Below are positions 32,328 to 42,106 of a stretch of DNA of 64,000 nucleotides, one piece after another (the stretch's first letter is position 1; each line of letters opens with the position of its first letter). Below the pieces are notes generated by a model. That model was not told where the DNA came from, did not search any database, and saw nothing but the letters and a program-made list of their open reading frames with translations. Position numbers and translations under genes: made by a program. The stretch spans positions 1,245,501 to 1,309,500 of the forward strand of contig NC_007722.1 in NCBI RefSeq assembly GCF_000013005.1. The letters run 5' to 3'. Origin of the DNA: Erythrobacter litoralis HTCC2594. GTDB taxonomy: Bacteria; Pseudomonadota; Alphaproteobacteria; Sphingomonadales; Sphingomonadaceae.

Positions 32328-34016
32328 TTACCTGATACGAGCACGAAACTGGATCGTGATGGTGGGGGCCGGACTGCCAAAACCAAGAGATTGCTTGGGA
32401 TTGATACAGATATGCCGGACTGCCGGGTCGTAGGCGCCCGAGACCGTCGGAGTGTAGGTGCAGGCCGCGAAGCTTGTCGGTGTTGCCGCAAGGTTCGAAT
32501 ATCGCAGGTCCGTTGCCTGTGTATAGGTCATCGCGGCTCCGTTAGACTGAGTGAAAAGCACGGTTCCGGTAGACGGTCCTGCACCATCGAAGTCCCCGAT
32601 ATATGCTTCGACCTGGGATGGCAGTGAGTCGATGATCACCACGGATCCGCTGTCTGTGGCAGCCGATCCGGTGTTTGAAGAAGTGATGGTGTAAATCACG
32701 TCGTTGCCCGGCACATTGAAGCCGTTCGGACTCGTGGATGCATACACGACACTGGTCTTCGACATCGTGAGAACCGGGGCGCCGAGAATGGTGACCTGGT
32801 AATCTTCCACTTCACCATCGCGACCGACGATTGTCGTCGCATCGAGATCGCTTTGACTTGACCAGCGGAAGCGAGCAAAAGTCTGGCCGACCACGGCGTT
32901 TAAGGGAACGGTGATCGACAGCCCGATTGTCCCGACCGCCGAGTTGCTATCGCCTGCACCGTTATCGGTTACGTTGATCGCAATCTGCTCTCCTGCGTCG
33001 AAGAAATCTCCGTCCCGGTTCCAGTCGAACCACGCCTGAAGTCGACCGGAAGCCCCAGTAACGCTGACGGTTACTGCCGCTGTGTTGTTTGGGCGTAGCG
33101 TTCCGAAGGTAACGCCGTCGTCGCCCACATCGGCGCTGGCATTCGCGCTGTTATAGGGGGCTGTCTCGGCTGTAACTGTTGCGCCGAGCCGGAAGCCGGT
33201 GACGATATCGTGACGTGGATTGCCATAGGAATTCGGTGCATCGCCGAAATCCTGCGGTGTCGGCGTCACGATCACCGGTGCAGGTAGGTTGGGGCAAGTG
33301 AACTGTAGCGAGGTCAGGCGGACGGTCGAGCCTGATCCCAACGTGCCGATGCGATAGTTGAAACCGCTTTTCTTGGTGTAGAATGTGGCGACGATGTTCT
33401 GGTTGGCCGAGGGGTCGATACCCGGCGCGGTGAAGCTTGTGATCGACTCGAAGCGGGTGTTCCCCGCCGAGGGAGTCGAGGCGTTCACGGCAAGATTGGT
33501 CGGGCTATTGAGCAGGTATTCGGCGAAGTTGTTCTGGAATTCGGCGTATTCGCGGAGCGAGCCGCTATCGCCGTCGACGTCGATTGCCGTCGATACGAAA
33601 TCGAAAATGATCGGCGTGTTTGTCCCGGAAATCACAAAGGTGAACTGGAAATCGACGCTACGGGCGTTGCTGCCGCCAAGCTCCGGATTGAAGAACGGCC
33701 GCAGGTCCGATTGCCCGGGTGCGGGTGCGCCGTTGTCGTCGATCGTGACCAGCGAAGCGCCGTTATTGAACGCCACAACTCTGACCAGCGCATCGATACC
33801 GGTGTTGACGTTGGAGTAGCGGTATACAGCGCCCGGCTGCAGCGCCGTTCCCGATACGAGTGTCGGGGTGGCGCTGAAGTTCATCGTGGTCACGACGCGC
33901 CCGAGACAAATCTCGGTCGTCTGCGCACTAACCGGTGCGGCGGTGAAGACCGTCATTGCCGTGGCGATCACGCAAACCGCCAGCGCGCAGACATAACGGA
34001 GGATCATCCCCATCAC
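32328..34016 (-). CDS. GEVED- and DUF11-domain secreted protein (cluster gene 5)
   Basis: A 562-residue secreted protein (signal to about residue 32, VFTAAPVSAQ). Residues 33-245 are a cysteine-containing beta region of unknown type. Residues 256-410 form a GEVED domain, opening with DFGDAP, with AWFDWNRDGDFFDAGEQ as the acidic calcium-type loop and GRDGEVEDYQV as its hallmark. Residues 417-562 are a DUF11-type domain ending in TITIQFRARIR at the very C terminus. No anchor or sorting signal is seen. Its ATG overlaps the stop of the 1693-residue gene upstream (ATGA). The function is unknown; a surface or extracellular structural role is inferred. Confidence 0.8.
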   Translation of the reverse strand: MMGMILRYVCALAVCVIATAMTVFTAAPVSAQTTEICLGRVVTTMNFSATPTLVSGTALQPGAVYRYSNVNTGIDALVRVVAFNNGASLVTIDDNGAPAPGQSDLRPFFNPELGGSNARSVDFQFTFVISGTNTPIIFDFVSTAIDVDGDSGSLREYAEFQNNFAEYLLNSPTNLAVNASTPSAGNTRFESITSFTAPGIDPSANQNIVATFYTKKSGFNYRIGTLGSGSTVRLTSLQFTCPNLPAPVIVTPTPQDFGDAPNSYGNPRHDIVTGFRLGATVTAETAPYNSANASADVGDDGVTFGTLRPNNTAAVTVSVTGASGRLQAWFDWNRDGDFFDAGEQIAINVTDNGAGDSNSAVGTIGLSITVPLNAVVGQTFARFRWSSQSDLDATTIVGRDGEVEDYQVTILGAPVLTMSKTSVVYASTSPNGFNVPGNDVIYTITSSNTGSAATDSGSVVIIDSLPSQVEAYIGDFDGAGPSTGTVLFTQSNGAAMTYTQATDLRYSNLAATPTSFAACTYTPTVSGAYDPAVRHICINPKQSLGFGSPAPTITIQFRARIR

Positions 34017-37000
34017 CGGTTCAGTCCCAGGAAGGAGAAGGTGTCGGCATCAAACTTGACGCGCACCGACGCGAACAGGCCCTTGTCGGTATTGCGCGCT
34101 TCGGAAAAATCGCGGTCGCGGAAACCGGCAATGTTGTAGCCAACAATCACCAGAGTATCCTGGGTGGGTACGAAACCGATCTGCGGTCCGACCGCGAAGC
34201 TGGTGAAGCCATCGGTTAGGTTGGTGCGCACGGTTGCGGTGCCGCCGATTTCAAGACGGTCGCCGATGCCGATCCGCAAATCGAGGCCGCCGAGCACGGT
34301 CGTTCCGGCAAGATCGAAGTCCCCCACACGGTCAAAATTGTACCGACCGCCGAGAAAAATTCCGATCTCCGACCGTCGCACCAAGTGTTCGACTCCGTCG
34401 ATCTCGTCAACACCGTGCGGCGACCAGTTCGCCGACAGGCTGCCGACGAGCCTGCGCGATTTCGCGTCGCCATCCACTGTGAGAGCCGTGCGACCGGCGG
34501 GACCCACTTCTCCGGCCACCGCGCCCGTGACGCTATCGCTGCGATAGGCAAGCTTTCCGAGGAACGCGAAGCTCGATTCCGCCGGGCGGTAAGCGGTCGA
34601 AAGCGCTGCATCGAAGATTTCGGTTTCGACTCCGCCATCACCCGTCGCACGGGTCCAGGTCAGACCGGAGCCGACGACTATGCCGTCGTCGAGCTGCCGG
34701 ATGATGCCTGCGGTCAGACCGACCCGGTCCGCGAATTCTCCGTCGCGAATTTCGCCGCGCGCAGTAGCCGACCAGCGATCCTTTCGCCAGGATGCTCCGA
34801 GTGTGGCGGCGGTGAAGTCCTCGAACAGCGCGCCGTCCTGCGAGAGGTGGCCGCCCGATGCGACCGGATGCAGCGGGTTGAGCACGTCGAATGCATCCGC
34901 ACCGCCGAGCTCGCGATTTCCGTCGAGCGTGGCGTCGATTGAAAGTTCCGACGTGACCGTGAAGGACTGCGACAGGCCGAATGCGGCGAAGGTCCGCTTG
35001 CCCTGCTCGGCAATGTCCTGCTGACCCAGCGAAGTGACAATGCGCGATCCCTGCCATGGTGTAAGCTCGAATCCGGCGTTGAACGTGCGGGCGTCGATGA
35101 TTTCGCCGTCGGCGATTTCATATACGCCAACAACACGCAGCCAATCGGTGACCGAATAGCGGGCGCGCAGCCGGTGGCGCGCCGGCAAGTCGAGCGACTC
35201 CGCGTCGTCCAGCGCAACGCTGGTGGTTGCGCTCAATTCGAGTTTATCGTCGAGCAGGCGCTGCGATACCGCGCCTTCGAGCACCGTCGATTTCGCCTTG
35301 GTACCGTCTGCCAGCCGGTCGTCGAGACGCGCGATGCCGAGGCGCAGTTCGGTGTCTCCGGTGCGATAGGTTCCCGCAACCTGCACGGCCCGGCGATCCG
35401 AATCGTCGGTCAGGCTTTCGTCGTACCAGGCGCTGCCGACGAGCGAGAAATGCTCTTCGAGGGAATAGCGCGCGTCGACGCCGAACTTGCGACGCCCAAG
35501 CTCCGCGCCGGTCTGCTGACCGGTCCCGTAGTCCGCATCGGTCGACCGGGCATAGGCAAGGATATCGAGCGAGCCGGTGCGATGTTCGGCCTCGACGAGC
35601 CATGCTGATGCATTTGCACCTTCGCGCCGGCTCGTGCCGGCTTCGGCACGGATTTCGGTCCCGGAAGCGATGCGAGCACGCAGGTCGATCGCACCCAGAT
35701 CGGTCCGCGCCCCATCACCCTTGTCGGTGATGCCGGTGACGCCGACGCGCAGAACATCGTCTCCGAACGTGTAATCGGCGCGCGCACCTGCATTCCAGTT
35801 CGCTTTGCCGTCACCGTCGAAGACCTCGTAGTCGATCACGATGAATTGCGGGTTGAGGTCGAAATCGCGGCTGAGAACCGGTTCCTTGAAACTGATCGTG
35901 CCGGAAAGCGGATCGATATCGTAGTCGATGAAGCGAATGAGTTCGCGGCGTTCGACGACAATTTCGGAGCGCAGCCGGTCGCGCGTCTCGATGGCGACGA
36001 TTTCACTGTTGGATACGATGTCGCGACTGCCGAGACGATACGGCCCGCTGAGTCCGTTGCCCTGGATTTCGTCGCGGCGAAACCGGCTCGCGATCTTTGC
36101 GGCGAAGCCCTGCGCATGGAGCGCGCCGAAGCGGCCTTCGGCCTTCACACCGGTTGCGGTGCGCTCGTAACGGCCGAGCAGGGTCTGGTCGAAGCCGGTG
36201 ACGAAGTCTCCATAAAGGGCATAGAAGGTGCTGGTTTCGATCCGCACGTAGAGCTTTTCGCGGCTTGCAGCATCGAAACGCCGGTCGCTGCCATCGGCGA
36301 AGACGGTGTAATAGGCGTTGGGATCGATGGTCCCTAGAAGACGCTGGTCGTCTTCCTGCTTGGCGCTGTCGTAGGCGATCGTCGCAATGAACTTACCCAG
36401 GACGTGACCCTTGGCATACAGCGCGACCCGCGCCTTGTTACCGAGGTCGCTGTCGAAATTGCCAGTCCGCTCCATGTTGTCGGCGATCGTCTTGGCGCCG
36501 ATCGAGCCTTCCGCAAGGCCTACGACTGTCCATTCGAGGTCACCCGGCACGATCCAGCTCTCGATCTGCTGCTCGCGCGTTGCTTCGCGGTCGGCAAAAG
36601 AGAACGAGAGATGCAATGGACCGCTGACCATCGTCGGGGCGAGTTCGACGAGCGCGATGCCGTCGTCGCCAGCGATAGTCCATGTGGGCGTGGCCGAACC
36701 CTGGCCGGCCAGTTGGCGCAACTGCAGCTGGTCGAGTAGCGCAGCGCTTTCATATGGTGCACTGACGGTGACCGAACCGGTTACGCCGTCATGGACCGGC
36801 CGCCCGCGGCGATCGGTCAGGCGGACCGCTATGACCGGACGCGTCCGGCCGTCGGCGATGAGGTGCGACCTGTCTCGCACGATCTCCGCATGCCACGGGG
36901 TCGCGACGAACTCGACGTTGCGCGTGAGATCGTCGGCTACACTGCCGTCCTCGTTACGGATAATCGCGCGAAGGCGAGTGGTGCCATCGTCGATGCTCAC

Positions 37001-39094
37001 GCCGCGCCAGATACTGACCGAATAGAATCCACCTTCCGACGTTTGCACGGCGTCGAGCGCGCGCTCGCTGACGGGCTTGCCATTGGCCGAAAGCTCCACG
37101 CTCTGTCCCGGACGGTGCCGGATCACGACGCGCACTGCGGGCGCGCGCGGATTGTGATCGACCTCCGGGAACAGGAAAGCGTTCGGACCATCGCCCTCCG
37201 CCAGCCAGTCGCGGTCGTTGCCGGCTGCCTCGCGCGCGGTGGCAATTTCGGCGGTCGGCGCCTGCGCTACGCCAGAATCGGCGGGAGCAGCCTCGCCTGG
37301 AAGTGATGGGGTCTCGACCGGAGCAGGGGCTATCCATCCCGGCACGTCGGCTGTGAAATCGACGACCGCGAGGCTGCCACCCTGACCGGTCACGAAATGT
37401 GAGGACGCATTGCCCGCCGACCGGCTCGAGCGGTCGCAATCCACAAAGCGGCCACCCTCCGGCAATGTCTGGCGCTGTGCCTGCACCACGTGGGTTCCCG
37501 GCACTACGCCTTCGAAATGGTAACGCCCCTCGTGGTCGGTAAGGGCGAAGCTGCCGTCTTCCAGCATCACGCGCACACCGGGAATGCCGACACGATTGCG
37601 GACAACATCGCATGTCCCCGAAGTGACCCGACCAATGATCGTCATCCGCGAGGCGATGGTATCGCGCTCGATGCGGACCGATGCTTCGGCTACTGCGCGA
37701 CCGCCGAACGGGTCGCTTGCTTCCGCGCGATTGACCGCCTGGCCCGGAGGTGCGTCCGGCCGCACCACCATGGCGTAAGTTACCTTGACGGTTCCACCTG
37801 CCTCGATCGAGGCGATATCGATAGCCAGCCGACGTCCGTCCGGCGCGATCGTGACTGCACTTGCAGCGTCGCGGCCGTCGACCCGCACGGAGTCCGCACG
37901 CAGACGCAGCCACGGCGAGGGAAGGTCGACCAGCGTAACTCCGCGCTTTGTGCGCGCCGGATCGGGATTGCGAAGGGTGACGGTGTAGAAAATTGCATCG
38001 CCGGGCTGTGCGCGCGCACGCGACGCCGATTTCATTATCGTGACCGAAACATTGGGCCGATCGACCGGAATGTCGACCCGCACCGGGTCAATTGAGACAA
38101 GAGCGAAAGATGCTCCGTACGACGCGTCCGAAATCACGAAGGCGCTACCGTCGGGTCGGGTCAGCCCAGCCAGTTGCGGCGGCTGCACGACCGAGGGCGC
38201 GGTGTATGGGCCAGGTGGCGTTACGACAAGCCGGTAGGAGCCTAGCGGCGCCAGCGGGAAGCGAAACTCGCCGGGCTGCATCGGATAAACATTGTCGGCC
38301 GCATCGCGGATCGGTTCGCCGGAAACGACCGTCGAGGGCCAGGGGGTGACGCCATCATCGGCGAAGACAGTGGCCGGCAAACCCGTGGCGGCGTCGACGA
38401 GGGTGACCGTCGCGCCGGAAACGGGCGAGCCGTCCTCGCTGTCAAACACGAAACCGTAAGGGTCGGCGAGAACACCGACCAGCGTCGTGACCAGGGGAGG
38501 GGCACCGTTCGCTCCGCCAAGAGCAACGGTGATCTGTTCACCCGAGCTCACGCTGAGCTGGCAGTCCTGCTGCGTCGGCGACGGCGGGGTGGCGCGCGTC
38601 CGGATCGCACCCGTAAAGATGCCCGTATCGGGACCGGTTTCGAAAATCTCGAGAACCTCGCGGTCTCCGCCGGGGGTGGTGATGGTGGTCGTCAGAGTGT
38701 CGACCGCGTCGGGGCTGCGATTGGCCAGCGGCGCGGATGCCCGGATGACCAGCACTTCACCGATCCGGAGTTCGGCTGTCGCAGCGGATGCGATCCCCAC
38801 GCCTCCATCAGCAGAGCCGGGGAAAATCACGAGCGGTGAATTGTTGCAGGTCGAAGCGCGGACGGGGAGGCTCGATCCGGCGCTTGGAAGCGGTCGGAAA
38901 GTCTCGAGCGTGAGGGGATTAACCGCGCGTTCGATCGTGACCGTATTGGATGTCGTCGATCTCGCGACCGAGTCTTCGGTCCAGTCCGCGCGGGCTGTGT
39001 TGGTGATGGTCTGGGCTGCGGCAGGCGCAACGAACAGCAGCAGCGCCCAAACGAGCGCTGCTGCCATTGCGTAGCAAGGATTAAGAAGCCGCAT
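34013..39094 (-). CDS. Giant surface protein: DUF11/CNA-B/Ig-like domains plus predicted outer-membrane beta barrel (cluster gene 4)
   Basis: A 1693-residue protein. The signal peptide ends near residue 28. Residues 29-60 carry the same ITNTA...SNTVTI module as two neighbours. Residues 212-300 and 500-545 are CNA-B/SdrD-like (SPVSGATVTLVDAATG; IPGVRVMLEDGSFALTDHEGRYHF). Residues 349-445 form one DUF11 domain, and residues 745-840 are Ig/invasin-like. From about residue 885 to the end the sequence is alternating-hydrophobic beta-strand with short turns, and SVRVKF may form a final strand with C-terminal aromatic. The barrel is predicted, not shown. It is the only obvious membrane anchor in the five-gene unit. 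Confidence 0.78.
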   Translation of the reverse strand: MRLLNPCYAMAAALVWALLLFVAPAAAQTITNTARADWTEDSVARSTTSNTVTIERAVNPLTLETFRPLPSAGSSLPVRASTCNNSPLVIFPGSADGGVGIASAATAELRIGEVLVIRASAPLANRSPDAVDTLTTTITTPGGDREVLEIFETGPDTGIFTGAIRTRATPPSPTQQDCQLSVSSGEQITVALGGANGAPPLVTTLVGVLADPYGFVFDSEDGSPVSGATVTLVDAATGLPATVFADDGVTPWPSTVVSGEPIRDAADNVYPMQPGEFRFPLAPLGSYRLVVTPPGPYTAPSVVQPPQLAGLTRPDGSAFVISDASYGASFALVSIDPVRVDIPVDRPNVSVTIMKSASRARAQPGDAIFYTVTLRNPDPARTKRGVTLVDLPSPWLRLRADSVRVDGRDAASAVTIAPDGRRLAIDIASIEAGGTVKVTYAMVVRPDAPPGQAVNRAEASDPFGGRAVAEASVRIERDTIASRMTIIGRVTSGTCDVVRNRVGIPGVRVMLEDGSFALTDHEGRYHFEGVVPGTHVVQAQRQTLPEGGRFVDCDRSSRSAGNASSHFVTGQGGSLAVVDFTADVPGWIAPAPVETPSLPGEAAPADSGVAQAPTAEIATAREAAGNDRDWLAEGDGPNAFLFPEVDHNPRAPAVRVVIRHRPGQSVELSANGKPVSERALDAVQTSEGGFYSVSIWRGVSIDDGTTRLRAIIRNEDGSVADDLTRNVEFVATPWHAEIVRDRSHLIADGRTRPVIAVRLTDRRGRPVHDGVTGSVTVSAPYESAALLDQLQLRQLAGQGSATPTWTIAGDDGIALVELAPTMVSGPLHLSFSFADREATREQQIESWIVPGDLEWTVVGLAEGSIGAKTIADNMERTGNFDSDLGNKARVALYAKGHVLGKFIATIAYDSAKQEDDQRLLGTIDPNAYYTVFADGSDRRFDAASREKLYVRIETSTFYALYGDFVTGFDQTLLGRYERTATGVKAEGRFGALHAQGFAAKIASRFRRDEIQGNGLSGPYRLGSRDIVSNSEIVAIETRDRLRSEIVVERRELIRFIDYDIDPLSGTISFKEPVLSRDFDLNPQFIVIDYEVFDGDGKANWNAGARADYTFGDDVLRVGVTGITDKGDGARTDLGAIDLRARIASGTEIRAEAGTSRREGANASAWLVEAEHRTGSLDILAYARSTDADYGTGQQTGAELGRRKFGVDARYSLEEHFSLVGSAWYDESLTDDSDRRAVQVAGTYRTGDTELRLGIARLDDRLADGTKAKSTVLEGAVSQRLLDDKLELSATTSVALDDAESLDLPARHRLRARYSVTDWLRVVGVYEIADGEIIDARTFNAGFELTPWQGSRIVTSLGQQDIAEQGKRTFAAFGLSQSFTVTSELSIDATLDGNRELGGADAFDVLNPLHPVASGGHLSQDGALFEDFTAATLGASWRKDRWSATARGEIRDGEFADRVGLTAGIIRQLDDGIVVGSGLTWTRATGDGGVETEIFDAALSTAYRPAESSFAFLGKLAYRSDSVTGAVAGEVGPAGRTALTVDGDAKSRRLVGSLSANWSPHGVDEIDGVEHLVRRSEIGIFLGGRYNFDRVGDFDLAGTTVLGGLDLRIGIGDRLEIGGTATVRTNLTDGFTSFAVGPQIGFVPTQDTLVIVGYNIAGFRDRDFSEARNTDKGLFASVRVKFDADTFSFLGLNR

Positions 39095-39129
39095 ACAACC
39101 TGCCGGCCGAAGACCGGCGTCCTTTCAGG

Positions 39130-40266
39130 TTACCTGATGGTCGCCTGAAACCGCAGCGTCCGCGTTTCGGAGGCAGCGATACTGGCAAAGGTGTTGCTCA
39201 CGGTCGTGGTCCCGGCATTGTAGTTCGCGCCATCACTGCCGGCGGTACCGCCCGTCGCCGCACACCCGTTGGTGCCGTTGAACGCACCGTTCAGGTATAC
39301 GCTGTTGGCGACGTAGGTCATCGTCGCGGGTACGACGTCGCTGACCGCAACAGTCGTGGCGGTCGAGCCACCCGAGCCGTTGGCGACCACGATGCAGTAC
39401 TCGACAACCGCACCCGGCAGGGCGAAGAGCGTGCCGGTTTGGCCGGCGGGCCCCTGCACGACGCGGCTGTACTTGTTTACTGCTAGCCGGGCAGCCGTGA
39501 CCGCGTAATCGCTGCGCGCGGCGTGCTTGCCGTTGAACTGCGCATCGAAGGTCAGATAGCTGGCGTCGGAGAAGACCGTCTCCATGCCGTTCTTGGTGTT
39601 GGTGGCATCCTGCGTCACCGCGGTACCGCCCGAACCGGCGCTCGCGCCGGTCACGCCGGTAATGGCTGTTCCGGCGGTAGCGCCGCTGGCCGCCGTCGCT
39701 GTCAGCATGACGGTCGCGACGGCATTATCCGCCGGGAAACCGCCACCGGAGAGGACGATATCGGACAGAATGAAGACATTGACCCTGTCGCCCGAGGCCA
39801 GCCCGGCAATCGTGGTCGACTGCACGTCCGTTCCCGGATCGTAGACGCCGTTGTTGTTGGTATCGATGAAAACGCGCAGGTTCGTCGGATCGAACGTATC
39901 GTTGATCGCACCGTTGAAGTTCGATGCACCGCCGTTCTGATTCGAGCCCACGAGCGTGAAATCAAGGGTCGCGTTCGAATTGTTGGTCACGCTGAACTTG
40001 GTCACGGCGCTGGTCTGGCCGGGAGTTACCGCGACCGCCTGCGAATCGAGCGTCGCCACGGTCACGTTGACCTTGCGGTCGACCTTGAACGTGTCGGTGG
40101 CCTGGACCTGCGCCTGGCTCACCCCGCCGACTTGGTAGTTGACGGTGACGGTATTGGTGATGTCGGTATTTGCGGCCGTCCCCACCGGGGCGGCCATCAC
40201 GATTGTCGGTACGGAGATCAGCGCTATCGCGCTGGTTCCCGCGACCAGTCTCTTGATGCGGTTCAT
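39130..40266 (-). CDS. Secreted DUF11-type protein with calcium-type loop (cluster gene 3)
   Basis: A 378-residue secreted protein (signal ISVPTIVMAAP, cut near residue 26). Residues 36-72 carry the shared module ITNTVTVNYQVGGVSQAQV. Residues 75-200 form a beta domain with FIDTNNNGVYDPGTD at 133-147, which resembles a calcium-binding acidic loop. Residues 270-378 are a DUF11 domain with LPGAVVEYCIVVANGSGGS, VSDVVPATMTYVANSVYL and the C-terminal strand TLRFQATIR. There is no anchor. It is 35 bp upstream of the giant barrel protein gene on the same strand. Confidence 0.8.
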   Translation of the reverse strand: MNRIKRLVAGTSAIALISVPTIVMAAPVGTAANTDITNTVTVNYQVGGVSQAQVQATDTFKVDRKVNVTVATLDSQAVAVTPGQTSAVTKFSVTNNSNATLDFTLVGSNQNGGASNFNGAINDTFDPTNLRVFIDTNNNGVYDPGTDVQSTTIAGLASGDRVNVFILSDIVLSGGGFPADNAVATVMLTATAASGATAGTAITGVTGASAGSGGTAVTQDATNTKNGMETVFSDASYLTFDAQFNGKHAARSDYAVTAARLAVNKYSRVVQGPAGQTGTLFALPGAVVEYCIVVANGSGGSTATTVAVSDVVPATMTYVANSVYLNGAFNGTNGCAATGGTAGSDGANYNAGTTTVSNTFASIAASETRTLRFQATIR

Positions 40267-40336
40267 ATCGTTTTATCCTTGCTAAGGTGGATCTGTTTTT
40301 CGCCCGGATCCATAAGGCGGTCCTGGTCTCCGGCCG

Positions 40337-40804
40337 CTATCGGACGGAGGCGAAGTAGGTGACTTGCCCGGAGGCCCCGGGCGCGATCGAGGCGATCGTC
40401 CAGCGAACCTGCTCGACATCGGCGAGCATGGCCGGCCGCGAGCCGCCCTCGGGAAGTGAAACGGTACGAGATTCGAGCGGACCAAAGGTTTCTCCGCCAT
40501 CGACGGACACTTCGAAATCGCCCGCGTCAGTCAGCAAGACCGCTTTCGGAAGCGGGTTGGTTATGACGAAGTTCTCGACCAGCTCGCTCGTCCCATTGCG
40601 ATAGCTGGTTGTGAACTTCAGCCGATCGCCCGGAACGACCTGCGTCGGTTCGGCGTAGGTTTCGACGCGCTTTCCGGCCTCCTCGACGATGCGGACGACC
40701 TTTACATCGCCCTGCAATTCCACGGTGGTTTGGGCAAACGACGGCGTGCTGAACGCGACGCTCGCAGCGAACATCGAGGCGATGACAAATTTGTGATCAA
40801 ACAT
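40337..40804 (-). CDS. Small secreted single-DUF11-domain protein (cluster gene 2)
   Basis: A 155-residue secreted protein (signal MFAASVAFSTPSFA, cut after residue 24). The mature part is essentially one DUF11-like domain: VVPGDRLKFTTSYRNGTSELV, NFVITNPLPKAVLL, then FEVSVDGGETF and the final IASIAPGASGQVTYFASVR. It lacks the N-terminal module of its neighbours. It is 14 bp downstream of gene 1 and 70 bp upstream of gene 3. Confidence 0.78.
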   Translation of the reverse strand: MFDHKFVIASMFAASVAFSTPSFAQTTVELQGDVKVVRIVEEAGKRVETYAEPTQVVPGDRLKFTTSYRNGTSELVENFVITNPLPKAVLLTDAGDFEVSVDGGETFGPLESRTVSLPEGGSRPAMLADVEQVRWTIASIAPGASGQVTYFASVR

Positions 40805-40818
40805 GATAATTTTCCGAT

Positions 40819-41787
40819 TTAATTCACGATGACATCGAAGGTGACAGCACGGCTTGTTCCAGCCGCCGTAGTCCCAAGGGTGACCGAGATTCCGGAGGAG
40901 GATGCCGTGCCGGCATCGCTGTCGGCGAGGTCGGTGAGCGGGGCGTCGTCGAGCGTGAGCGAATCGGCCGCATAGGTGGTCGATGCCGGGATGGCGTCGG
41001 TGATGACCAGATCGTTCACCGAACCTGACCCGCTCGCGCTTGCGACGATGCGGAAAGTGATGCGTGCGCCTGGCACCGGCTGGGTTCCACCGAACGGATC
41101 GCTCACGGTGGCGGTTTTGACCAGCGAGACCGAAACCGCGCTCGATACAAGCGACCCGAGTGCCTCGTCGTCGGCGCCCGTGCTGCCGACGACAGCAGCG
41201 CCGCCGCCTTCACCGGCACCGGCGAAGACAGTGCCGGGTGCACCCGTGCCGGTCGCGGCTTGGGCGAGAAGGTTGACCTGGCTTGTCGCGCCGTCGACCG
41301 CACCGGGCGACTCCACCAGAACGAACACCGTCAGCGGCGCGTCGGGATCGATCGAAGGTGAAGTGCCGCCATTTGCCAGCAATGCATCGATACCGGCGTC
41401 GTAAACGCCGTTGCCGTTCGAATCGATTGCGAGCGAATTGACAGTCGCGTTGAAATCGTTGCCCGCTACGTTGGGATCGGCGGTAAGGACAAAAGCTTCG
41501 GGTCCGTTCCCGGTATTGGTCACCGTGTACGAGAGCACGGCCGATGCGGAGATCGGGATCGCGCTCGCATCCCTGGAAGCGACCGCGACATCGAGCAGTT
41601 CGTCGACCATGATCGTTACGGTGTTGGAATCGAGCGACTGCGTGGGCCCACCGGTGTTGTAGCTGGCGGTCGCCGTGTTCTCGATCAGCGTACCCGCGGG
41701 CACTCCTTCAGCGAGCGCGACGGAGGGCACCACCAATAACGCAATCGAGGCGAGGCCGTGGCGGCGAAAGGAAGAGGCAAAAGTCAT
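40819..41787 (-). CDS. Secreted DUF11-type protein, first gene of the cluster (cluster gene 1)
   Basis: A 322-residue secreted protein (signal to residue 26, VVPSVALA). The shared N-terminal module is LIENTATASYNTGGPTQSL (34-52) and SNTVTIMVDELLDVAV. The beta domain at 70-180 contains the loop IDSNGNGVYDAGID (121-134), almost identical to that of gene 3. Residues 222-322 are DUF11 with PVPGARITFRIVAS and ITDAIPASTTYAADSLTL, ending in AVTFDVIVN. It heads the five-gene unit; a CtrA-like half-site lies about 20 bp upstream of its ATG. Confidence 0.8.
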   Translation of the reverse strand: MTFASSFRRHGLASIALLVVPSVALAEGVPAGTLIENTATASYNTGGPTQSLDSNTVTIMVDELLDVAVASRDASAIPISASAVLSYTVTNTGNGPEAFVLTADPNVAGNDFNATVNSLAIDSNGNGVYDAGIDALLANGGTSPSIDPDAPLTVFVLVESPGAVDGATSQVNLLAQAATGTGAPGTVFAGAGEGGGAAVVGSTGADDEALGSLVSSAVSVSLVKTATVSDPFGGTQPVPGARITFRIVASASGSGSVNDLVITDAIPASTTYAADSLTLDDAPLTDLADSDAGTASSSGISVTLGTTAAGTSRAVTFDVIVN

Positions 41788-42016: not shown

Positions 42017-42106
42017 TGGCGGACAGGGTGGGATTCGAACCCACGAAGGGCTTGCACCCTTGCCGGTTTTCAAGACCGGTGCATTCAACCGCTCTGCCAC
42101 CTGTCC
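42017..42106 (-). tRNA. tRNA-Ser (anticodon UGA)
   Basis: Read on the minus strand, the acceptor stem GGACAGG (42106-42100) pairs with CCTGTCC (42027-42021). The D arm region is GCAGAGCGGTTGAATGC. The anticodon stem-loop holds TGA at 42072-42070. A long variable arm GGGTGCAAGCCC marks it as class II serine. The T arm is GTGGGTTCGAATCCCAC. G73 and an encoded CCA (42019-42017) are present. Total length is 90 nt. Confidence 0.97.

Follow-up and report, generated by a model that had tools for sequence, protein, structure and literature searches.

The 64,000-nucleotide stretch of the Erythrobacter litoralis HTCC2594 genome analyzed here (contig NC_007722.1, positions 1,245,501 to 1,309,500 of the forward strand; hereafter, the window), which comes from a genome consisting of a single 3.05 Mb contig, contains five adjacent open reading frames (ORFs) on the minus strand, which we denote A, B, C, D and E in the order of their transcription. 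An earlier note on this DNA had described them as five consecutive genes separated by gaps of 14, 70, 35 and -4 bp, and had attributed to each product a signal peptide and one DUF11-like domain, interpreting the set as a self-contained surface fiber, adhesin or two-partner-like export system built around D. The ORF list agrees with this arrangement of the genes, and a Sec signal peptide is recognizable by eye at the N-terminus of each of the five proteins. The DUF11 domain received the name CLIPPER in 2025, when it was described as a domain of fibrillar adhesins that forms an intramolecular isopeptide bond (PMC12617251). We consider it probable, based on the sequence comparisons described below, that the five genes encode a surface fiber resembling a donor-strand-complemented pilus, in which the DUF11 (CLIPPER) domain is cut at the subunit junctions and probably locked by isopeptide bonds, with the barrel of D as the base.

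A DUF11 domain apparently divided between gene products

Matches to DUF11 profiles are present in all five proteins, and the attribution of one such domain to each product holds, with the correction that only the copy in D is complete. The Pfam DUF11 family matches A, B and D, in each case slightly below its gathering score. With the NCBIfam model TIGR01451, A and C scored over the cut-off in the family scan, whereas the matches of B, D and E were under it; for D, the score was 18.4 bits in that scan and 24.2 bits, over the cut-off, in the genome search. The DUF11 profile signal in B and E is weak only, and E also contains a strong match to Pfam GEVED. The C-terminal parts of A and C, which we denote acceptors, exceed the Pfam DUF11 cut-off when they are excised and scored alone (25.4 and 28.0, respectively, versus 24.6).

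Along the 114 positions of the Pfam model, the D copy covers 3-97, and A and B run out of protein at position 84. We further employed hhalign with a DUF11 template of 134 positions, built by aligning relatives of D with giant DUF11 proteins encoded at other loci. The acceptors of A, C and B cover positions 5-100, 16-101 and 14-101 of this template, after which the chain ends. The putative donor hairpins, found N-terminally in A, C and D, align to positions 102-128, 102-128 and 108-128. The location of the cut is highly conserved: the C-terminus falls at one same residue in 48 of the 57 A proteins (with one extra residue in 8 more), in all 57 B proteins and in 54 of the 57 C proteins, and the E-type proteins that we inspected end at the same DUF11 cut. 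By profile coverage, a complete nine-strand DUF11 domain in one chain is found in D only, and the combination of an incomplete Ig-like domain with an N-terminal donor segment in one subunit is detected in A and C by sequence and, in the case of A, also by structural modeling. The gene boundaries cross DUF11 as though a stalk of tandem DUF11 domains had been severed in the loop that joins strand 7 to strand 8, and the split architecture appears to be well supported by these alignments.

The assignment of the donor hairpins comes from the register of the alignments, the scores by themselves being modest: the hhalign P values are 0.0044 for A, 0.044 for D and 0.13 for C, the latter not significant alone. 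When the hairpins of A, C and D were joined to the acceptor of A, the Pfam DUF11 score rose by 4.9, 3.1 and 6.1 bits, respectively, and when they were joined to the acceptor of C, it rose by 6.2, 4.2 and 4.5 bits, with the coverage of DUF11 extended to 98-114 of the 114 positions, compared with a gain of 0.7-1.0 bits for the N-termini of B and E joined to the acceptor of A (six additions and two controls). Positions 10-62 of the A-family profile, which include the hairpin, also hit a relative of D, encoded in genome G096, at its N-terminus (E = 7e-4), and in a sliding-window scan with a broad DUF11 profile, the donor of A was the best window outside the complete DUF11 of D for the acceptors of A, B and C. 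A profile of the DUF11 tail made from the D relatives alone, which was too narrow, missed the donors.

An AlphaFold2 model of A, obtained with 86 relatives (pLDDT 90.4, pTM 0.68), contains a confident two-strand N-terminal hairpin (strands 34-43 and 50-60) that carries Asn37 and is followed by the middle domain. The C-terminal domain of the model, from residue 217, is made up of seven strands, of which two span just three residues each, with Lys224 in the first strand and Asp264 in the third. The seven acceptor strands and the two hairpin strands would add up to nine, matching the count in 9IFR, a CLIPPER structure with nine strands and a Lys715-Asn806 bond near Asp748 (section 2.4 of PMC12617251).

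Conservation of the isopeptide triad

Conservation of the triad residues was counted in family alignments (n = 57 each for A, B, C and D). In the complete domain of D, Lys355, Asp390 and Asn455 are retained in all 118 sequences of a first alignment and in all 57 of a second one. This domain shows a weak sequence match to 9IFR (E = 0.078), in which the Lys and the Asn are aligned with their counterparts and the Asp with an Asp that is numbered one residue later than in the paper.

The same residues are conserved in the putatively divided domains. In A, the donor Asn is present in 54 of the 57 sequences, and the acceptor residues Lys and Asp are each kept in all 56 rows without a gap; across 87 aligned A sequences, all three residues are invariant. 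In C, both Asn38 and the Lys are found in 57/57 sequences and the Asp in 56/57, with one Glu, and the donor Asn32 of D is kept in 57/57. Among the acceptors of E-type proteins, 44 of 49 retain both Lys and Asp; of two further ones, one has both residues and one has neither. A loose motif pattern, a rough check that carries no weight of its own, occurs in 52 of 56 A, 54 of 55 C, 54 of 56 D and 8 of 56 B proteins. The conservation of Lys and Asp in domains that are devoid of the Asn strand is sensible if the Asn comes from elsewhere. Moreover, given that D has a donor without an acceptor, and E an acceptor without a donor, the partner of each must be another protein.

E-type proteins co-occur with the operon

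By profile, E adjoins the operon in 32 of 56 loci, mostly after D and once before A (L051); in two loci of one genus, it is encoded on the opposite strand, and in L048 and L050, a short E after D is, by eye, little more than an acceptor. The 22 operon-bearing genomes without a recognized adjacent E were searched in full with the acceptor alignment; these include G014, where another copy of the operon has an adjacent E, and G171, with an E-type gene at a distance of about 6 kb from D. In 21 of the 22 genomes (in 20 of 20, then in G073 and not in G037), the search detected an E-type match outside A-D. The same acceptor query had no match in 30 operon-negative relatives of the same family, which represent 24 genera, several of them also with operon-bearing members (Fisher p = 2e-14 for 20/20 versus 0/30, a value that takes no account of relatedness). 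These 30 genomes are also devoid of A, which was detected in both positive controls.

Four remote E-type proteins (L134-L137) terminate exactly at the acceptor. A second E-type protein is encoded in the window's own genome (G000 contig 1, 1996917-1997336; L113, L139); it consists of 638 aa and combines CshA_NR2, two SpaA_3 stretches and a C-terminal half-DUF11. The heads of the E-type proteins differ, containing GEVED, P_proprotein, DUF7933, Laminin_G_3 (below its cut-off), or no known domain. Taken together, these features are the pattern of exchangeable tip adhesins sharing a putative docking tag.

At L054 and at G035 contig 3, 231668-235933, D is followed by a tandem array of three E-type genes encoded on the opposite strand, none of which has the Lys and Asp of the triad.

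Conservation and spread of the A-B-C-D unit

D was matched in 72 of 199 genomes of the family; seven genomes that match part of D only (mostly residues 850-1160) and one fragmented genome were excluded from the operon carriers. The order A-B-C-D on one strand was found in 56/56 loci from 55 genomes (G014 having two copies) and in 11/11 further loci, that is, in 67/67, all selected for containing D, and the operon is thus no random succession of genes. The first count is 55 by script, which skipped C in L050 because of an over-extended ORF, and 56 by inspection, and some of the D or A genes in these 56 loci are cut or interrupted (L075, L084, L095, L096). A lack of joint conservation, which the earlier note named as refuting its reading, is not seen for A-D; E is variable, yet the presence of E-type proteins follows that of the operon from genome to genome. 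The flanks of 12 loci fall in several neighborhoods, so that the A-B-C-D unit seems to move as a block. Stops or split frames in D, suggesting decay or sequencing errors, were seen in L084, L096 and the loci of G148, G121 and G315.

In the order-level search for D, the matches listed were in its own family only (75/296), and matches were found in 11/385 at the class level and 54/398 at the phylum level, many of them covering part of D only. Among known protein sequences, there are at least 1,915 matches to the barrel and at least 2,474 to A. L161 and L162, the latter from another class, carry A, B, C, D and E. The other loci are more divergent in composition: L165 has B-like, A-like, D and acceptor-type genes (by profile only); L114 has B, C and D, with no A found; L115 has an A-like gene, B, D and an E-like gene; and L169 has a D-like, a B-like and an acceptor-ended gene. 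L163, L164 and L166-L168 represent a variant in which a large D is accompanied by different donor-acceptor subunits, L168 being truncated by the contig end. In L163, L164, L167 and L168, these donor-acceptor subunits are weakly similar to A and C.

Several of L055-L064, together with L170, contain two-gene relatives, in which a 740-2,450-aa DUF11/SdrD_B-type protein is encoded beside a barrel protein of 1,100-1,500 aa whose match to D spans approximately residues 850-1160. In L057, L062 and L064, a protein end appears OmpA-like by eye.

The barrel-like half of D

The C-terminal half of D contains 42 amphipathic strand peaks versus 23.6 +/- 3.8 in shuffled sequences at the middle threshold. Because the Ig-rich N-terminal half exceeds its shuffles as well (19 versus 9.8 +/- 2.6 peaks), such peaks are a weak sign of a barrel; the peak density is 5.0 per 100 residues in the barrel half versus 3.1 in the N-terminal half. 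The C-terminal motif of D resembles that of 1,200-1,500-aa relatives from other loci, among which nine of ten inspected proteins have F or Y as the last residue and the tenth has L; D itself continues for about 12 residues more, and a loose last-strand pattern is present in 44 of 56 D proteins. By sequence, the barrel half had no match to a solved structure, ushers and translocons included. The strand peaks and the C-terminal motif are weak to moderate indirect signs of a barrel, and D would likely be an outer-membrane barrel anchor.

Other assignments were tried and rejected. As to membership in the usher, two-partner or inverse-autotransporter groups, none of these families reached its cut-off and the barrel half matched no solved structure, the Invasin_D3 match at residues 737-802 of D is far under its cut-off, and there is no Pfam match that fits the name TonB-dependent receptor, given to a D relative by one source.

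A proposed fiber and the alternatives

The distribution of donors and acceptors suggests the following assembly. DUF11 would be cut between its 7th and 8th strands, with the acceptors at the C-termini of A, C, E and B devoid of strands 8-9, and the mature N-terminal hairpin of A, C or D would complete the domain of the subunit ahead. As the acceptor carries Lys and Asp and the donor carries Asn, the triad should be assembled upon insertion, giving a Lys-Asn bond without a sortase, so that a covalent bond between subunits is likely. E, with an acceptor only, a variable adhesin-like N-terminus, and counterparts encoded elsewhere in the genome, would be the exchangeable tip; A, next to the tip, and C, as shaft or link, would be the links, each with a donor and an acceptor; and D, with a donor only, fused to the barrel, would be the base in the outer membrane. 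The simplest order from tip to base is E-A-C-D, because E is without a donor and D without an acceptor; this order, in which C and/or A might be repeated, is weakly supported, and the gene order E-A-B-C-D coincides with the proposed physical order in L162, L051, L122, L124 and L126. B, an acceptor without the chemistry, would cap donors non-covalently before assembly, as a chaperone, or be a minor subunit; in the role of a donor cap we have low confidence. The surface fiber or adhesin around D that the earlier note envisaged is consistent with the joint conservation of A-B-C-D, some barrel-like features of D and the adhesin-like domains of E-type proteins, but the note had missed that DUF11 is cut between subunits.

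Several observations weigh against this model. The similarity of the donor tails is weak: the hhalign probabilities are all below 8%, and two control segments reached P values of 0.026-0.027 elsewhere in the template. The related DUF7927 profile was undiscriminating (a gain of 4.4 bits for the N-terminus of B versus 4.3 for the hairpin of A), the best windows listed for the broad-profile scan do not include the donors of C or D, that scan was uninformative for E, and with a narrower profile, an unrelated amidohydrolase window outscored every listed donor for the acceptors of A, B and C. The giant DUF11 proteins of L057, L059 and L060 likewise begin with such a hairpin, which might thus be a generic N-terminal element, and in the model of A, the hairpin may pack on the middle domain of its own chain. 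In B, the position of the triad Asp is occupied by N in 52 of 57 sequences and the Lys is variable, leaving this protein without the chemistry. In G037, where D is located at the contig end, no E-type protein was found.

The pattern of triad loss is mixed as well. In three genomes of one genus, the donor Asn of A is replaced by Ser, and the adjacent E acceptors are without Lys and Asp, which would be expected if A inserts into E. However, in the same genus, a distant E-type protein (L149) retains both Lys and Asp; in L162, the Asn of A is lost while E retains both residues; and in L050, E has Arg and Glu, yet A retains Asn. Given these exceptions, the joint loss in A and E is no more than suggestive of E-A pairing. 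In four loci of another family (L163, L164, L167, L168), the D donor has Ser at the expected Asn. In L163, the acceptors that were inspected keep Lys and Asp despite this Ser.

Among the alternatives, the view of D as an export pore, usher-like or two-partner-like, with the fiber passing through the barrel, is compatible with the split-domain fiber and is somewhat unlikely in our assessment. The related barrel family is encoded elsewhere by a separate gene beside giant DUF11 proteins, as in two-partner arrangements, and the immediate neighbors of the operon are not export-like by eye. Conversely, the barrel half of D does not match the sequence of any solved usher or translocon, and a protein with its passenger at the N-terminus and its barrel at the C-terminus is laid out like an autotransporter, unlike an usher, which we count against this view.

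We think it quite unlikely that the split-domain fiber is assembled non-covalently, with the hairpin completing the neighboring domain and the triad kept for packing. Such a fiber would fit the cut domain of B, which is shared without the chemistry, and the few lineages that have lost the donor Asn or the acceptor Lys and Asp while retaining the operon. It is harder to reconcile with the invariance of the triad in A and its near-invariance in C and the D donor, and in 9IFR the equivalent residues are bonded (PMC12617251).

A further possibility, that A and C are self-closing monomers in which the hairpin folds onto the C-terminal half-DUF11 of the same chain and no polymer is formed, we regard as very unlikely: the hairpin of A is confidently predicted in a single chain, and A and C each hold both halves, but the donor of D and the acceptors of E and B need another protein, and among the genomes tested, E-type acceptors occur only where the operon is present. 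Least probable of all is that these proteins simply begin with a hairpin as an ordinary element and end in short DUF11 domains that are stable by themselves, being separate secreted adhesins loosely bound to D, as the hairpins of giant DUF11 proteins in another system, the looseness of the DUF11 family and the weak similarity of the donor tails might suggest, because A, B and C share one fixed cut position, the E-type proteins inspected likewise end at the cut, Lys and Asp are retained in domains without an Asn strand of their own, and E-type proteins co-occur with A-D in the tested genomes with one exception.

A covalently locked, barrel-anchored fiber made by donor-strand exchange of DUF11 would, if real, imply that bacteria have long used a split self-sealing domain in the way engineers did with SpyTag/SpyCatcher, and would provide Gram-negative bacteria with a sortase-free covalent fiber. 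It would also explain a large family of proteins named only 'DUF11 domain-containing', 'hypothetical' or 'TonB-dependent receptor', and turn the C-terminal half-DUF11 into a sequence rule for recognizing tip proteins and a source of new natural tag-catcher pairs. The broader proposition, to which we give slightly less than an even chance, is that the operon represents a class of Gram-negative fibers that use natural tag-catcher chemistry, with a self-sealing split CLIPPER, a barrel anchor, and the half-domain as a portable tag that covalently fixes to the tip adhesins encoded at any place in the genome.

Layout of the operon

The coordinates of the genes and of their parts are collected in Table 1. 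A scan for promoters and terminators gave no more hits than shuffled sequences (promoters, 1 versus 2.0; terminators, 11 versus 8.7 +/- 3.4). A tRNA-Ser (TGA) gene is located on the minus strand at 42017-42106, about 230 bp upstream of gene A.

Table 1. Genes A-E and their predicted parts, in window coordinates (position 1 is the first nucleotide of the window)
Feature	Coordinates	Strand	Description
Gene A	40819-41787	-	322 aa: signal peptide, putative N-terminal donor hairpin, Ig-like middle domain, C-terminal half-DUF11 (acceptor)
Donor hairpin of A	41596-41709	-	residues 27-64; Asn37 in first strand; resembles the final two strands of a complete DUF11
Acceptor half-DUF11 of A	40822-41139	-	residues 217-322; Lys224, Asp264; without the last two strands
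Gene B	40337-40804	-	155 aa; half-DUF11 only (acceptor part 40340-40732), without a donor hairpin
Gene C	39130-40266	-	378 aa; plan as in A: donor, Ig-like, acceptor
Donor hairpin of C	40072-40191	-	residues 26-65; Asn38
Acceptor half-DUF11 of C	39133-39501	-	residues 256-378; Lys265, Asp310
Gene D	34013-39094	-	1693 aa: putative donor hairpin, complete DUF11, CarboxypepD_reg-like domain, barrel-like C-terminal half
Donor hairpin of D	38915-39013	-	residues 28-60; Asn32
Complete DUF11/CLIPPER domain of D	37661-38062	-	residues 345-478; Lys355, Asp390, Asn455; internal control
CarboxypepD_reg-like domain of D	37469-37591	-	residues 502-542; Pfam PF13620, 50 bits
Barrel-like C-terminal half of D	34016-36547	-	residues 850-1693; periodicity and C-terminal motif
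Gene E	32328-34016	-	562 aa, GTG start; adhesin-like N-terminal part, GEVED, acceptor half-DUF11, no donor
Acceptor half-DUF11 of E	32331-32786	-	residues 411-562; triad Lys in TMSKTS, Asp in VIIDSLP

Comparison with known systems

No account of this operon system was found among the papers listed from the open-access literature, which was covered mostly by titles and the openings of abstracts, with bioRxiv outside the scope. In its available part, PMC11952670 concerns other appendages. Two further leads were discarded: the accessible text of PMC9723273 holds nothing relevant to the operon, and the 'DUF11' text matches in the portions available of PMC12282271 and PMC8343143 are nearly all to DUF1194 or DUF1137.

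None of the usher or PapD-chaperone families was found above cut-off among the five operon proteins, the rest of the genome not having been searched, and the match of B to one fimbrial model is negligible (13.9 bits against a cut-off of 400). Chaperone-usher pili nevertheless resemble the operon in having a tip without a donor and a large outer-membrane barrel protein. In type 1 pili (FimA/FimD), the C-terminal Ig-like domain is likewise incomplete and is filled by the N-terminal extension of the next subunit (PMC9715654, in the part available). The operon would differ from the chaperone-usher systems in that the donor is a two-strand DUF11 hairpin, the triad is split, and the barrel protein itself bears a donor. 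We view it as a variety of donor-strand fiber outside the chaperone-usher pathway.

Strand exchange in a Gram-negative fiber is also known from the type V pili of Bacteroidota (Mfa1/FimA), a trait shared with the proposed fiber. The type V subunits are lipoproteins matured by proteases, and no sign of such maturation was recognized by eye in the five proteins. Mfa5 is said to be the pilin of the study by Heidler and colleagues. That work reports an isopeptide bond in a Gram-negative pilin (Heidler 2021, as cited in PMC12617251). With respect to sortase-dependent assembly, no sorting-signal family is among the matches of the five proteins, and A, B and C end at a strand; no search for a sortase gene was made.

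In the archaeal thread of Saci_0406, for which no sortase is known, subunits are likewise joined by donor-strand complementation and by an isopeptide bond that has been proposed between them, according to the excerpted text of PMC9715654. The bond in that thread connects the amino group at the N-terminus of one subunit to an Asn of the subunit two places away, whereas here it would connect Lys and Asn inside one rebuilt CLIPPER domain; the same excerpts describe no such barrel anchor for the thread. Closer in domain composition is the CLIPPER adhesin B9T28_05395 of Acinetobacter silvestris (9IFR), which has the same domain with the corresponding Lys-Asp-Asn and a CshA_NR2 or GEVED head, but, as far as the available part of PMC12617251 goes, carries its CLIPPER repeats in one chain with an OmpA-like anchor, whereas here the domain would be cut between separate proteins. 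Finally, SpyTag/SpyCatcher, in the partial accounts available, is likewise a split isopeptide domain that joins spontaneously; those parts were engineered from intact domains, whereas the split in the operon described here would be a natural one.

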